From: a virus
Reading direction: 5' to 3' (one strand)
Virus record (IMG/VR): IMGVR_UViG_3300036980_000028
Span: 1 to 32,015 of that record
DNA length: 32,015 nt
In this document: piece after piece, positions 12,210 to 29,680 of the stretch
How the letters are laid out: the number at the start of each line of letters is the position of its first letter
Numbering within the stretch: the stretch's first letter is position 1
The notes under the pieces: generated by a model
What the model was told of the DNA's origin: nothing
What the model saw: the letters and a program-made list of their open reading frames with translations, nothing else
Databases searched by the model: none
Translations under genes and position numbers: made by a program

Positions 12210-13931
12210 ATGGCAGGTAAAGTAGCCCAGATACAACAAATTATTAATAGGGAATCTCTTGCTAGTTCTTTATCAGGATTATATGATAATTGGCGTAGGC
12301 AACGCTCTGTTAAAGAGGCAGAATGGAGAGAATTACGTAACTATCTCTTTGCCACTGATACAACTAAAACAACTAATAGTAAACTTCCTTGGAAGAATAA
12401 GACTACTCTACCTAAGCTTACTCAAATTAGAGATAACTTACATGCTAATTATATGGATGCTTTATTTCCAAATGATAACTGGCTTAAATGGGAAGGGTAT
12501 AACTTAGAATCAGTTACAGCCAAAAAGCGTGTAGCTATTGAAGCTTATATGAAATCTAAACTAAAAGAGTCAGGGTTTAGAGAAACAATCTCAGCATTAG
12601 TTTATGATTATATTGACTATGGTAATGTTTTTGGTGAGATTACTTTTATAAATAAAGTAAGAACAGATCCAATATCAGGAGAAGAGAACCTAATTTATCG
12701 TGGTCCTAAACTAGAACGTGTCTCACCTTTTGATATAGTATTTAATCCTACAGCAATATGTTTTGCTGATAGCCCTAAGTTTACCCGTTATGTTAAGGCA
12801 GTAGGAGAACTTAAAAAAGATATTTCTAATCGTCCTGATCTTAATTATGAAGAGGTTGCTTTTAAAAAGGCAATAGAAACTCGTCGTAGTTTATCTGCCT
12901 TCCGTATGGAAGATGTTAATAAGTCAGAGGGATTTATAGTAGATGGTTTTGGTTCTTTACAAGAAGGTGATGTATATGATGAGGTTAAAGATGTTCTACT
13001 AGAGAATCGTATTGTAACTATCATTGATAGAAGCTATATTATTCGTAATATTGAGAACCCATCATGGTCAGGAAAAGATACTAAACATCATGTAGGTTGG
13101 AGAAATAGACCAGATAATCTTTATGCTATGGGTCCACTAGATAATCTAGTTGGCTTACAGTATCGTGTAGACCACTTAGAGAATCTTAAAGCTGATGCTT
13201 TAGACATGACTATCCATCCTCCTATTGTAATCCAAGGGGATGTAGAACCCTTTACTTGGGCTCCAGAGGCTACTATTCATATACCTGAAGATGGTAATGT
13301 TTCTGTTCTTCCTCCTAATAGTGCTGCTTTTCAAGTTAATAATGAAATTGGTACTCTATTAATGATAATGGAAGAAATGGCAGGGGCTCCAAGAGAAGCT
13401 ATGGGAATACGTAGCCCAGGTGAAAAGACTGCCTTTGAAGTACAACAATTACAAAATGCAGCAGGTAGAATATTCCAACATAAGGTAAATAAATTTGAGA
13501 TTGAGTTTATAGAACCTATAGTTAATGCTATGTTAGAATGTGCTCGTCGTAATATTGATGTAGCAGAGTTAGCTAAGATCATGGACAATGACCTAGGAGT
13601 AACTGATTTCTTATCTATTACTAAAGAAGATATTACAGCTAAGGGTAAATTACGTCCTATAGGAGCTCGTCACTATGCAGCTAGAGCACAACTGGTTCAA
13701 AATATGATGGGTATATTTAATAGTCCTATTGGACAAGTTATTGCTCCTCATGTTTCTAGTAAACGTCTTGCTAATATGGTTGAAGAGTATATGGGTTTTG
13801 AGCAATTTGATTTCATCCAAGATAATGTTGCTATCTTTGAGCAGGCTGAAAGTCAACGTTTAGTTAATCAAGCTCAAATGGATATACAAAATCAATCTAA
13901 TACTCCATTAGAAGAAGATATAGTTCAATAA
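12210..13931 (+). CDS. Portal protein (head-tail connector, T7-like)
   Basis: A 573-residue protein. It opens with a helical region containing WRRQRSVKEAEWRELRNYLF, then WKNKTTLPKLTQIRDNLHANY and WLKWEG. Further on, MGPLDNLVGLQYRVDHLENL and EMAGAPREAMGIRSPGEKTAFEVQ resemble the core and crown-facing parts of podovirus 'head-to-tail connector' portals; GIRxPGEKTAFEVQ is particularly characteristic. It forms the dodecameric ring for packaging and DNA exit. A GGAAAA site precedes ATG 12210, ten bases after the terminase stop. The gene ends just before the promoter at 13936. Confidence 0.9.
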   Translation: MAGKVAQIQQIINRESLASSLSGLYDNWRRQRSVKEAEWRELRNYLFATDTTKTTNSKLPWKNKTTLPKLTQIRDNLHANYMDALFPNDNWLKWEGYNLESVTAKKRVAIEAYMKSKLKESGFRETISALVYDYIDYGNVFGEITFINKVRTDPISGEENLIYRGPKLERVSPFDIVFNPTAICFADSPKFTRYVKAVGELKKDISNRPDLNYEEVAFKKAIETRRSLSAFRMEDVNKSEGFIVDGFGSLQEGDVYDEVKDVLLENRIVTIIDRSYIIRNIENPSWSGKDTKHHVGWRNRPDNLYAMGPLDNLVGLQYRVDHLENLKADALDMTIHPPIVIQGDVEPFTWAPEATIHIPEDGNVSVLPPNSAAFQVNNEIGTLLMIMEEMAGAPREAMGIRSPGEKTAFEVQQLQNAAGRIFQHKVNKFEIEFIEPIVNAMLECARRNIDVAELAKIMDNDLGVTDFLSITKEDITAKGKLRPIGARHYAARAQLVQNMMGIFNSPIGQVIAPHVSSKRLANMVEEYMGFEQFDFIQDNVAIFEQAESQRLVNQAQMDIQNQSNTPLEEDIVQ

Positions 13932-13935
13932 TCAC

Positions 13936-13964
13936 TTGACAAATATGAAAAAGTATGTTATAAT
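13936..13964 (+). promoter_or_regulatory. Perfect consensus sigma-70 promoter with extended -10
   Basis: TTGACA at 13936-13941 and TATAAT at 13959-13964 are separated by exactly 17 bases, and TGT at 13956-13958 makes a TGn extended -10. The first base seven positions after the -10 is 13971, the ATG of the next gene. It lies in the 39-base gap after the portal stop and would drive the small ORF, scaffold and capsid genes with host polymerase. No second match of this quality was found in the window. Confidence 0.9.
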
Positions 13965-13970
13965 TGTTTT

Positions 13971-14195
13971 ATGGATTTAAAATCAGAAAAGGCTAAAGCC
14001 TTAACAAAACATGAAGTGTTTCTAGAATTAAGAGAATATATTAAAGAACAAATTGATTTATCTCAAAGAAAAACACTTGATGAAAAAAGTTTTGAACTAC
14101 CTAGTTGGAGTGAATATCAGGCATTTCAACTAGGCTTTCAAAAAGCACTATCTAAACTTAGTAACTTAATTCCTGACCAAGGAGCATTAGATTGA
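13971..14195 (+). CDS. Small protein upstream of scaffold, 74 aa (leaderless?)
   Basis: A 74-residue, mostly helical, charged protein: KAKALTKHEVFLELREYIKE, then DLSQRKTLDEKSFELPSWSE and FQLGFQKALSKLSNLI. I do not recognise a named family, though a small acidic/basic helical protein between portal and scaffold is common in T7-like phages. There is no Shine-Dalgarno sequence before ATG 13971, and the promoter's expected transcription start coincides with the ATG, so the mRNA may be leaderless. The 3' end carries AAGGAG at 14179-14184, the binding site for the scaffold, which it overlaps. Confidence 0.65.
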   Translation: MDLKSEKAKALTKHEVFLELREYIKEQIDLSQRKTLDEKSFELPSWSEYQAFQLGFQKALSKLSNLIPDQGALD

Positions 14196-14899
14196 CAGAA
14201 ACAACTATATTTGATTCCCAAGATACCAATCAAGGTAATCAGCAAGATACACAACCACAAGGTCTTCAGATTCCTACCGAAGCCTCTGACTTTATTGGTA
14301 GTGGTAAGAAGTATCAAACGCCAGAAGAAGCATTAAAAAGCGTTCCACATGCACAAAAGCATATTCAAACTTTAGAGTTAGAGTTAGCTAGTGTAAAAGA
14401 AGAACTCACAAAACGACGCACGGCACAAGAACTTCTAGATGAGATTAAGTCTGGTCTTCCAACTGAGAATACCCCTCAAGCTGTAGAATTTGACCAAGAT
14501 AGATTAGCACAGATTATTGACCAAACACTAACTGCAAAAGAGCAACAACGAACAGCAAAACAAAATACACAAACAGTAACTGAAGAGTTTACTAAAAAGT
14601 ATGGAGATAAAGCTGAAGAAGTTTATTTTTCAATTGCAAAAGAATCAGGTTTAACTGTGCAACAATTAAACGCACTATCTGCTAATGCACCAAGTGCTGT
14701 ATTGAAATTAGCTGGTTTAAATAAAGGTACTGTAGGCATTGCTTCTAAGAATTCAGGCACTGTTAATACACAAACTTTTAATACAGATCAGCAACAACAA
14801 TTATCAGCTAGGGTTCCTAAAGGAGCCTCTACACGAGACCTAGTCTCAGCTTGGAAAATAGCAGGTGAAAAAGTCAAACAAAAACTTTCTACATCTTAA
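14192..14899 (+). CDS. Capsid scaffolding protein
   Basis: A 235-residue hydrophilic protein directly upstream of the capsid gene. It has a Gln/Thr-rich N-terminus (NQGNQQDTQPQGLQ), then SGKKYQTPEEALKSVPHAQK, a coiled coil (about residues 52-90; QTLELELASVKEELTKR) and a Gln-rich central helix (QRTAKQNTQTVTEEFTKKYG). The 'KYxTPEEALxSVPHAQxHI' segment is typical of podovirus scaffolds, which guide procapsid assembly and then leave. The start is TTG 14192, seven bases after a perfect AAGGAG; its TTGA overlaps the preceding stop. No ATG lies nearby in frame, so the rare start is well supported. Confidence 0.85.
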   Translation: MTETTIFDSQDTNQGNQQDTQPQGLQIPTEASDFIGSGKKYQTPEEALKSVPHAQKHIQTLELELASVKEELTKRRTAQELLDEIKSGLPTENTPQAVEFDQDRLAQIIDQTLTAKEQQRTAKQNTQTVTEEFTKKYGDKAEEVYFSIAKESGLTVQQLNALSANAPSAVLKLAGLNKGTVGIASKNSGTVNTQTFNTDQQQQLSARVPKGASTRDLVSAWKIAGEKVKQKLSTS

Positions 14900-14911: not shown

Positions 14912-15892
14912 ATGCAAAATACAGTAAATACTACTGCCTTTATCGAGGCACAACAGTATTCTCAATTCATTCTGGATAATCTCCATGACTATCTGTTACC
15001 TGAAGGCTTATGGCGTGATGTATCAGACTTTGGTTCTGGTACAACTCTCAACATTAAAACTGTTGGTACAGTAACAATCCAAGATGCTGCTGAGGATACT
15101 CCTTTAAACTTTAGTCCTATTGACACTGGTACTATTACTCTATCTATTACTGACTACGTTGGTGATGCATGGAAAGTAACAGATGACCTTCGTGAAGATG
15201 GCTCACAAGTTGATACTTTGATGTCAATGCGTGCTATTGAATCTACTCGTGCTCTAGGTGAAAACCATGAGACTCGTTTCTTAACAGTTGCTGGTACAGC
15301 TCAAACTGCGGCTAACGTTAACTTAGTTAATGGTCGTCCTCATCGTTGGGTAGCGGGTGGTTCTGGTGGCACTAATCGTATTATGAAATTAGAAGATTTC
15401 ATTGCTATGAAATTAGCTTTTGATAAAGCAGGTGTTCCTGCTGGTGGTCGTATTGCTATTGTAGATCCTATTGTTGAAGCTTCTTTAAACAGTTTGTCTA
15501 ACTTAGTAAACGTATCTAATAACCCAATGTTTGAAGGTATTGTAAATGATGGTTTTGCTCGTGATCATAAATTTGTTAAAAATATCTTTGGTTTCGATAT
15601 TTGGACATCAAACTACTTACCAGTAAAAACAGGAACAGAGGCTTTAAATGCTTCTTCATATGGTCTAGCCAATGATACTGCTGAAATTGGTGATGTTGCT
15701 AATATCTTTATGAGTGTTGCTGATGATTCTACTAAGCCTATTATGCATGCTTGGCGTCGTCAACCACAAACTGAAGGCTGGCGTGATCCAGAAGGTCGTG
15801 GTGATAAATTCCAAGTAACTTCACGTTATGGTTTTGGTGCTCAACGTTTAGACAGCCTTGGTGTTATCTTCACAACTGCTTCAGCTTACTAA
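14912..15892 (+). CDS. Major capsid protein
   Basis: A 326-residue protein preceded by AAGGAAATAAA and placed right after the scaffold. It shows the layout of a HK97-fold capsid protein: N-terminal helical arm (FIEAQQYSQFILDNLHDYL), beta-rich E-loop (GSGTTLNIKTVGTVTIQDA), long spine helix with SMRAIESTRALGENHETR, and C-terminal P-domain strands (AWRRQPQTEGWRDPEGRGD). Assignment rests on position, size and fold-like layout. Codons are strongly biased to GCT/GGT/CGT, as expected for a highly expressed gene. It is the third gene of the promoter-terminator unit. Confidence 0.85.
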   Translation: MQNTVNTTAFIEAQQYSQFILDNLHDYLLPEGLWRDVSDFGSGTTLNIKTVGTVTIQDAAEDTPLNFSPIDTGTITLSITDYVGDAWKVTDDLREDGSQVDTLMSMRAIESTRALGENHETRFLTVAGTAQTAANVNLVNGRPHRWVAGGSGGTNRIMKLEDFIAMKLAFDKAGVPAGGRIAIVDPIVEASLNSLSNLVNVSNNPMFEGIVNDGFARDHKFVKNIFGFDIWTSNYLPVKTGTEALNASSYGLANDTAEIGDVANIFMSVADDSTKPIMHAWRRQPQTEGWRDPEGRGDKFQVTSRYGFGAQRLDSLGVIFTTASAY

Positions 15893-15910: not shown

Positions 15911-16396
15911 ATGGGAATCGAAATTGACGCAAAGCGTGGTGTAGCTAATAGCTATGGCCCACGTAGTACTACTGGTCAGTATGGTGCAAGTGGTAATTCA
16001 GACTCACTAATTCGTAGTGCTGTCTGGGAATTTACCTATAACACACTACCTGTACAAGGCACTAATAATCTACAGTTTGTTATTCCAGCAAATGCTACTA
16101 TTGTATCTGCTAAACTAGTAATTGATACTGCCTTTACTTCTACATCAGCTACAACTGATTTGGATGTAGGTTTATACACATCAGCAGGTGTAGTTATTGA
16201 TGCAGATGGTTTAATTACAGCTGCTAATGCTACACAAGCTACTATTGGTGTAGCTAATTCTATTATCACAGGTTCTGGTGCCCTAGTTGGTGTTGGTATC
16301 GGTGCTAGTGCTGGTGAATTAGTAATTGCTCCTACTGTTGCTGACTTACTAACAGGTTCTGGTCGAGTTATTGTAGAGTATATCTACAACAAATAA
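15911..16396 (+). CDS. Capsid-associated structural protein (possible decoration protein)
   Basis: A 161-residue beta-rich protein immediately downstream of the capsid gene. It starts MGIEIDAKRGVANSYGPRST and has a strand-rich middle (LQFVIPANATIVSAKLVIDT) and an ending with TVADLLTGSGRVIVEYIYNK. Similar short proteins follow the capsid gene in many podoviruses and are virion components, though a head-decoration role is only inferred from location. AAAGGAAATATATA precedes ATG 15911. A strong terminator follows the stop by 17 bases, so it closes the capsid unit and probably shares its high transcription. Confidence 0.7.
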   Translation: MGIEIDAKRGVANSYGPRSTTGQYGASGNSDSLIRSAVWEFTYNTLPVQGTNNLQFVIPANATIVSAKLVIDTAFTSTSATTDLDVGLYTSAGVVIDADGLITAANATQATIGVANSIITGSGALVGVGIGASAGELVIAPTVADLLTGSGRVIVEYIYNK

Positions 16397-16413
16397 TCAC
16401 CCCTGAGTGATGG

Positions 16414-16446
16414 AAAGGGGAACTTCAAAAGAGTTCCCCTTTTTTG
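16414..16446 (+). terminator. Strong rho-independent terminator after the capsid unit
   Basis: AAAGGGGAACT at 16414-16424 pairs perfectly with AGTTCCCCTTT at 16432-16442, with a 7-base loop (5 if the T-G pair at 16425/16431 forms), followed by a run of T to 16445. It should stop or attenuate transcription from the promoter at 13936. Confidence 0.9.
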
Positions 16447-16468
16447 TAAGAATTGAGAGGGAAATAAA

Positions 16469-17113
16469 ATTACTATCCAACATAAAAATATTGTAGAAGC
16501 AGATCTGCATGAGCCTAAAGGAGTTTCAACTGCTACTGTAGATAAGGTCTATGTATCTAATGGTGCAGGATCAGGGACTTGGCAGAAGCTAGATCCAACA
16601 CAGCTTGCAGGTATAACTACTAATGGTGCAGATGGACAAATTATTACAGTAGATGGTGCTGGTAATTTTGGCTTTACTAGTGCTGCTCATGGACATATTT
16701 ATTTCTATAGTGCTGGTTCTCCTAGTGTTATCACTTATCCTTCAACTGCTACAAAAGTAGCTCCTTCTATGACAGGAAGCAGCTCTAATACTTTAGTAAC
16801 TGAAGGTGCTGGTGCAACACTTACCTATACAGGTACTGACACAATAACTCTAAACATTTCTTATTCTATATCTTTAAGTCAAGCTGATGGAGCTAATAGA
16901 GATATATTAACTGCAATCTATAAGAATGGTACTTTACTTAATGGTCAATCTCTAATTACTTCACAAACAGCTGTTAAAGCTACTATGTCAGGCAAAGCTA
17001 ATGCTTCTTGTGCAACTAGTGATTACTTTGAAGTATATGTCACTAACCTAGGAGCAGGTGGTGATGTTAGTGTATATGCTCTACAAATAACTGCACAAGT
17101 GGCTGGAGCTTGA
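16469..17113 (+). CDS. Virion structural protein with AUU start
   Basis: A 214-residue beta-rich protein. The frame is open from just after TGA 16454-16456 and has no ATG, GTG or TTG until ATG 16769, 100 codons in. The strong GAGAGGG site at 16455-16461 lies seven bases before ATT 16469. From there the protein reads TIQHKNIVEADLHEPKGVST, VYVSNGAGSGTWQKLDP, then ITVDGAGNFGFTSAAHGHIY. 'xxxHxxIxxxxLHEPKGVxxA...VYVxxGAGSGTW' is a familiar opening of phage structural proteins. So I start it at ATT, not at 16769. The C-terminal half looks like a trimeric-type beta domain. It may be a head, neck or fibre component. Confidence 0.7.
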   Translation: MTIQHKNIVEADLHEPKGVSTATVDKVYVSNGAGSGTWQKLDPTQLAGITTNGADGQIITVDGAGNFGFTSAAHGHIYFYSAGSPSVITYPSTATKVAPSMTGSSSNTLVTEGAGATLTYTGTDTITLNISYSISLSQADGANRDILTAIYKNGTLLNGQSLITSQTAVKATMSGKANASCATSDYFEVYVTNLGAGGDVSVYALQITAQVAGA

Positions 17114-29645: not shown

Positions 29646-29680
29646 AAAAAAGCCCACCTAATACAGTGGGCTTTCTTTTT
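29646..29680. terminator. Bidirectional terminator between convergent gene groups
   Basis: AAAGCCCAC at 29649-29657 pairs with GTGGGCTTT at 29666-29674 around an 8-base loop. The + strand has TTTCTTTTT after the stem, and the complement of AAAAAA at 29646-29651 gives a T-run on the - strand. It should therefore end both the late genes and the RNR operon. A smaller hairpin, GCGCTGTAGCGC at 29631-29642, precedes it. Confidence 0.88.

Follow-up and report, generated by a model that had tools for sequence, protein, structure and literature searches.

The window, by which we mean the whole stretch of 32,015 nucleotides analysed here, is a 32-kb virus record of the IMG/VR type and possibly a fragment. 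Between its portal and scaffold genes lies a 74-residue gene preceded by an extended -10 sigma-70 promoter (Table 1). The original prediction had read TTGACA, a 17-base spacer, TGn and TATAAT as all exact and had placed a gene without a Shine-Dalgarno (SD) sequence at 13971, and both readings hold: no SD lies upstream of the small gene, whereas SDs of the AGGA/AAGGAG type precede most of the other window genes that leave a gap upstream. Sigma-70 polymerase prefers to start 7 bp after the -10, with a purine at +1 and a pyrimidine at -1, and starts more than 1 bp upstream or more than 2 bp downstream of the modal position are rare (PMC5730371). Judged by the placement of the -10, +1 is predicted to coincide with the start codon or to fall no more than about 3 nt from it, although the pyrimidine-rich TGTTTT could shift it 1–2 bases into the ATG.

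Table 1 Features of the capsid region of the window
Feature	Position	Strand	Basis or remark
Portal gene, own SD	12210..13931	+	stop 4 bases before the -35
-35 element TTGACA	13936..13941	+	sequence read directly
Spacer, 17 bp	13942-13958	+	last three bases TGT (extended -10)
Extended -10, TGt-TATAAT	13956..13964 (TATAAT 13959-13964)	+	spacer 17
Discriminator TGTTTT, six bases	13965..13970	+	
Predicted transcription start, A of ATG	13971	+	7 bp downstream of the -10; T at -1; from spacing and the rule in PMC5730371
74-aa gene, predicted leaderless, PHROG 8956 family, predicted helical hairpin	13971..14195	+	ORF; pN/pS
SD of scaffold gene, AAGGAG	14179..14184	+	
Scaffold protein gene (PHROG 7931); its TTG start codon overlaps the stop of the small gene	14192..14899	+	synteny with MEP401/402 scaffold
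Major capsid protein gene	14912..15892	+	PHROG 267, PF25209
161-aa gene, last of the operon	15911..16396	+	
Intrinsic terminator, 14-bp hairpin and T-run	16412..16446	+	closes the capsid operon

This promoter is the sole 12/12 sigma-70 site in the window. It is also the sole exact TTGACA(15-19)TATAAT, for which dinucleotide shuffles give a mean of 0.07 (n = 100, without TGn). With TGn about 0.001 such sites are expected per window, and about 3e-5 when an ATG at exactly N6 is required too. A chance consensus match might be suspected in an A+T-rich genome in which partial sites are common (60 at 9/12 against 48 expected), but the expectation and shuffle figures, together with conservation of the site at one position across a whole clade, refute this explanation, and we regard its probability as negligible.

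The nearest annotated relatives of the window are ctOsX528 and the Methylophilales phages MEP402 and MEP401, at about 70% DNA identity and with portals 68–70% identical to that of the window. The MEP phages are Zobellviridae according to their database records and are placed there in the literature (PMC10580990); ICP2 and similar Zobellviridae are more distant from the window. Homologous portal, scaffold and capsid genes stand in the window in the order of the Zobellviridae capsid module, and the phage is, by these similarities, related to marine Methylophilales phages. A host search in genome contigs matched five distant fragments and gave no host. The original prediction had found a host promoter unusual here on the ground that T7-like phages read their late genes with their own polymerase. 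That comparison does not carry over: a T7-type RNA polymerase (PF00940) was not found in seven relatives, with the T7 positive control detected, so these seven show no sign of the phage-encoded single-subunit enzyme of T7-like phages (Autographiviridae). As the relatives belong to Zobellviridae and no T7-type polymerase was detected in them, host promoters are expected. T7-type late transcription is similar in that the late structural genes all lie on one strand; it differs in that no phage RNA polymerase was detected in the relatives of the phage described here and that host-type promoters stand at several operon heads.

To follow the arrangement across relatives, portal-containing loci were gathered from viral contigs and phage records, giving 144 distinct borders and, at 95% identity, 93 portals for a tree; the ICP2 portal as search query yielded one locus. 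All promoters at the portal/small-gene border fall in a single clade of 66 representatives (support 99): 61 of 66 carry one, plus one weaker case, against 0 of the 27 representatives outside. The -35/-10 spacer is always 17 among clade promoters. The gap from -10 to ATG is 6–9 bases in 48 representatives (exactly 6 in 37, the window included, and 7–9 in 11) and 10–12 in three. Six others, all in one subclade, keep the promoter with leaders of 32–85 bases, most without an SD; in two more it lies inside the small gene, and in two before an unrelated inserted frame. The remaining members have a weak -35 (one), no promoter (two) or unrelated sequence after the portal (two). Separately, we observed that L066, L075, L079, L083 and L252 keep the promoter but have, ahead of the small gene, a very A+T-rich leader of 67–85 bases in which no clear SD is seen.

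Among the 37 N6 representatives TTGAC is invariant and TG and TATAAT are almost invariant, and the discriminator, constant in length, takes 20 different 6-mers. In 34 of the 37 a T stands directly ahead of the ATG, and this T at -1 and the A at position 7 agree with the start preferences of sigma-70 (PMC5730371). The MEP402 gene gp45 likewise shows TATAAT-N6-ATG. On the portal tree, 10 changes are needed for the -10-to-ATG gap and 25 for the distance from portal stop to -35. Comparison of the same gap in related phages, proposed as a check on the original prediction, thus finds both promoter and start position conserved, and the kept relation between promoter and start codon, with the kept absence of an SD, strongly supports the claim that the gene is likely leaderless.

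If instead the transcript began upstream of the ATG, or the protein truly started elsewhere, the gene would not be leaderless, and the N10–N12 gaps of some members and the long leaders of the one subclade lend this some plausibility. However, the modal start for TATAAT-N6-ATG is the A itself, and starts more than 1 bp upstream are rare (PMC5730371). The N-terminal MDLK is conserved exactly from the ATG at 13971, with no conserved in-frame codons or start upstream among relatives, so that the homologue alignment, which the original prediction had named as a possible refutation, offers no other gene start. We therefore hold this alternative to be very improbable. In Lactococcus cremoris leaders of 4–14 bases were not seen (PMC10986495), an absence that fits the gap between the N6–12 and N32+ groups.

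The 74-residue protein matches the PHROG 8956 profile (E 1.7e-6), as do 49 of 53 relatives, and is under purifying selection, with a pN/pS of about 0.40. A special synonymous constraint is not indicated at its first codons, where pS is slightly lower. A structure model gives a helical hairpin (pLDDT 88), for which fold searches of PDB and of viral structures returned nothing at E<=0.001; Pfam likewise gave no match for the window's protein.

Promoter and terminator in the window bracket the small gene, scaffold, capsid and 161-aa genes, an operon with a defined end that the original prediction had missed. The terminator region (16397-16460) folds at -22.6 kcal/mol (z -3.1). We found the hairpin by reading and a custom scan; a standard terminator scan missed it, presumably by absorbing A-T pairs into the stem. 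Hairpins of -10 kcal/mol or better follow the ~160-aa gene in 31 of the 41 clade members for which data exist (controls: 2/41 after the capsid gene, 0/41 after the portal, 0/41 shuffles). An equivalent terminator occurs in ICP2 and others outside the clade; none was found in MEP-like members. Taken together, the promoter, the bracketing terminator and their conservation point to a capsid operon that would be read by host sigma-70 polymerase and whose first cistron would be leaderless.

The start signals of the small gene vary with the position of the promoter. An SD precedes the small gene in 2 of 45 leaderless clade members and the scaffold gene in all 45 of the same loci. Outside the clade the start of the small gene mostly coincides with the portal stop or lies within it, and in ICP2 and its close kin it has an SD rather than this overlap. 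Several members outside the clade (ICP2, L165, L166/L168) have promoter-like sites between small gene and scaffold; that of ICP2 was annotated by its depositors, and that of L165 is TTGACA-18-TATAAT. Within the clade, L082 has lost the promoter and its small gene has GAAGGAG, L085 has the promoter plus a 32-base leader with AAGGAAG, and L115 and L141 have a perfect promoter within the small gene, the ATG of which overlaps the end of the portal gene at its stop. These four exceptions support a rule linking promoter position and small-gene start signal: the kept feature appears to be a promoter ahead of scaffold and capsid, and the start signal of the small gene would follow from where that promoter sits.

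The same observations bear on a further alternative, in which the promoter serves scaffold and capsid, the small gene is mainly translated from read-through mRNA by reinitiation after the portal stop, and the leaderless geometry reflects tight packing. The portal-stop-to-ATG gap is just 39 bases, the gene start overlaps the portal stop in most representatives outside the clade, and 70S scanning is a known route (PMC9031893). However, the gap is without an SD in 43 of 45 members, the -10-to-ATG distance is held tighter than the upstream distance, and two members (L123 and L140) have moved the ATG by one extra codon (MIDLK) and kept N6. The overlap with the portal is, moreover, present where the promoter lies inside the gene. 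We consider reinitiation as the main route unlikely.

The explanation we favour, and consider probable, is a host-read capsid operon with a leaderless first cistron, in which insertion of an extended -10 sigma-70 promoter replaced a portal-linked start. The strong promoter would let host RNA polymerase make a separate mRNA of the four bracketed genes, ending at the terminator. Transcription would begin on the A of the first ATG; ribosomes would bind this 5' AUG, and scaffold and capsid would start by ordinary SDs. In the clade ancestor the start of the small gene would have been coupled to the portal stop; a promoter inserted between these genes would have taken over from that signal, and the -10-to-ATG distance would have been kept since. 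Promoter, spacing, SD absence, conservation and terminator rest directly on sequence, and from them we infer the actual start site, leaderless translation, high capsid output and the order of evolutionary events. Several points count against this explanation: late transcripts reading through from upstream may include the small gene as well, and portal ribosomes could reinitiate on them 39 bases on; an ideal promoter should be active early, while capsid genes are late; one subclade has leaders of 32–85 bases; and the terminator was not found in MEP-like members.

Ten relatives with complete or long sequences were examined, and each has the same promoter class 2–5 times; ICP2 does not have it. 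A strict promoter-N6-9-ATG pattern gave 23 hits in 20 records (reversed control 0). In MEP401/402 the ribonucleotide reductase region is preceded by a DUF3310 gene that is leaderless by sequence, with TATAAT-N6-ATG (L086:11524-11774 in MEP402, L087:10759-11009 in MEP401); its homologue in G004 and G006 has an SD leader. The first late gene (PHROG 8035 type) has a near-consensus promoter at N6 or N8 from the ATG in G002 and G003 (L092-L097), and leaders of 34–270 bases in other relatives. The clade might use leaderless starts for regulation, with 70S ribosomes initiating on the 5' AUGs at the heads of its main operons: those of the capsid, of DUF3310 and the nucleotide genes, and of the first late gene. 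We think this doubtful; if true, the head cistrons would evade, or profit from, shifts in initiation factors or in SD competition in the course of infection, and scaffold and capsid would stay SD-dependent.

Leaderless genes as such are already known. Phage transcripts are often leaderless, as remarked in PMC5312081, and in bacterial sigma-70 'TA-led' genes the -10 is adjacent to the ORF (PMC3160421, PMC12340547). The gene described here shares with the latter a TATAAT six bases before the ATG, no SD and a predicted start on the AUG, but it has a near-perfect full set of -35, TGn and -10 and heads a phage capsid operon with ordinary SD-led cistrons behind it. The classic leaderless phage transcript is the lambda cI mRNA (cited in PMC9031893), also a phage gene with a host-type promoter and an mRNA beginning at the AUG, as predicted here; cI, however, is the lysogeny repressor of a temperate phage, whereas the present gene is small, conserved and part of a structural module. 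The Zobellviridae ICP2, CW02, CVT22 and PA11 have the same order of portal, small gene, scaffold and capsid, several with promoter-like sites before the scaffold and several with a terminator, but where a promoter is seen in them it follows the small gene, and the start of that gene either overlaps the portal stop or is preceded by an SD. In a literature search whose coverage leaves out many journals, no virulent phage was found described with a conserved leaderless cistron at the head of its capsid operon, and the MEP401/402 paper (PMC10580990) makes no mention of promoters or leaderless genes.

A promoter whose RNA is predicted to begin on the first gene's start codon would be an unusual and testable start for a major phage operon. 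Within one phage family the same gene occurs overlap-coupled, SD-led, leadered and, by prediction, leaderless, and the promoter follows it, lies within it or precedes it; with this natural series, cultured phages (MEP401/402) could be used to test how translation-start signals are exchanged. The arrangement also indicates how a podovirus group without a detected T7-type polymerase could express its capsid genes, from a host-type promoter and terminator that bracket them.

Three minor features were seen in the window. A weak promoter-like site, TTAACA-16-TAGAAT (14001-14028), lies inside the small gene at LTK codons, near the position of the perfect promoter in L115 and L141. The gene after the terminator (16469-17113) seems to start on a rare ATT codon, which is why the ORF listing gives just 16769-17113; ctOsX528 also has ATT there, and 21 relatives have ATG. 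A strong hairpin with a T-run at 29649-29674, where late genes and opposite-strand reductase genes converge, is likely a terminator.
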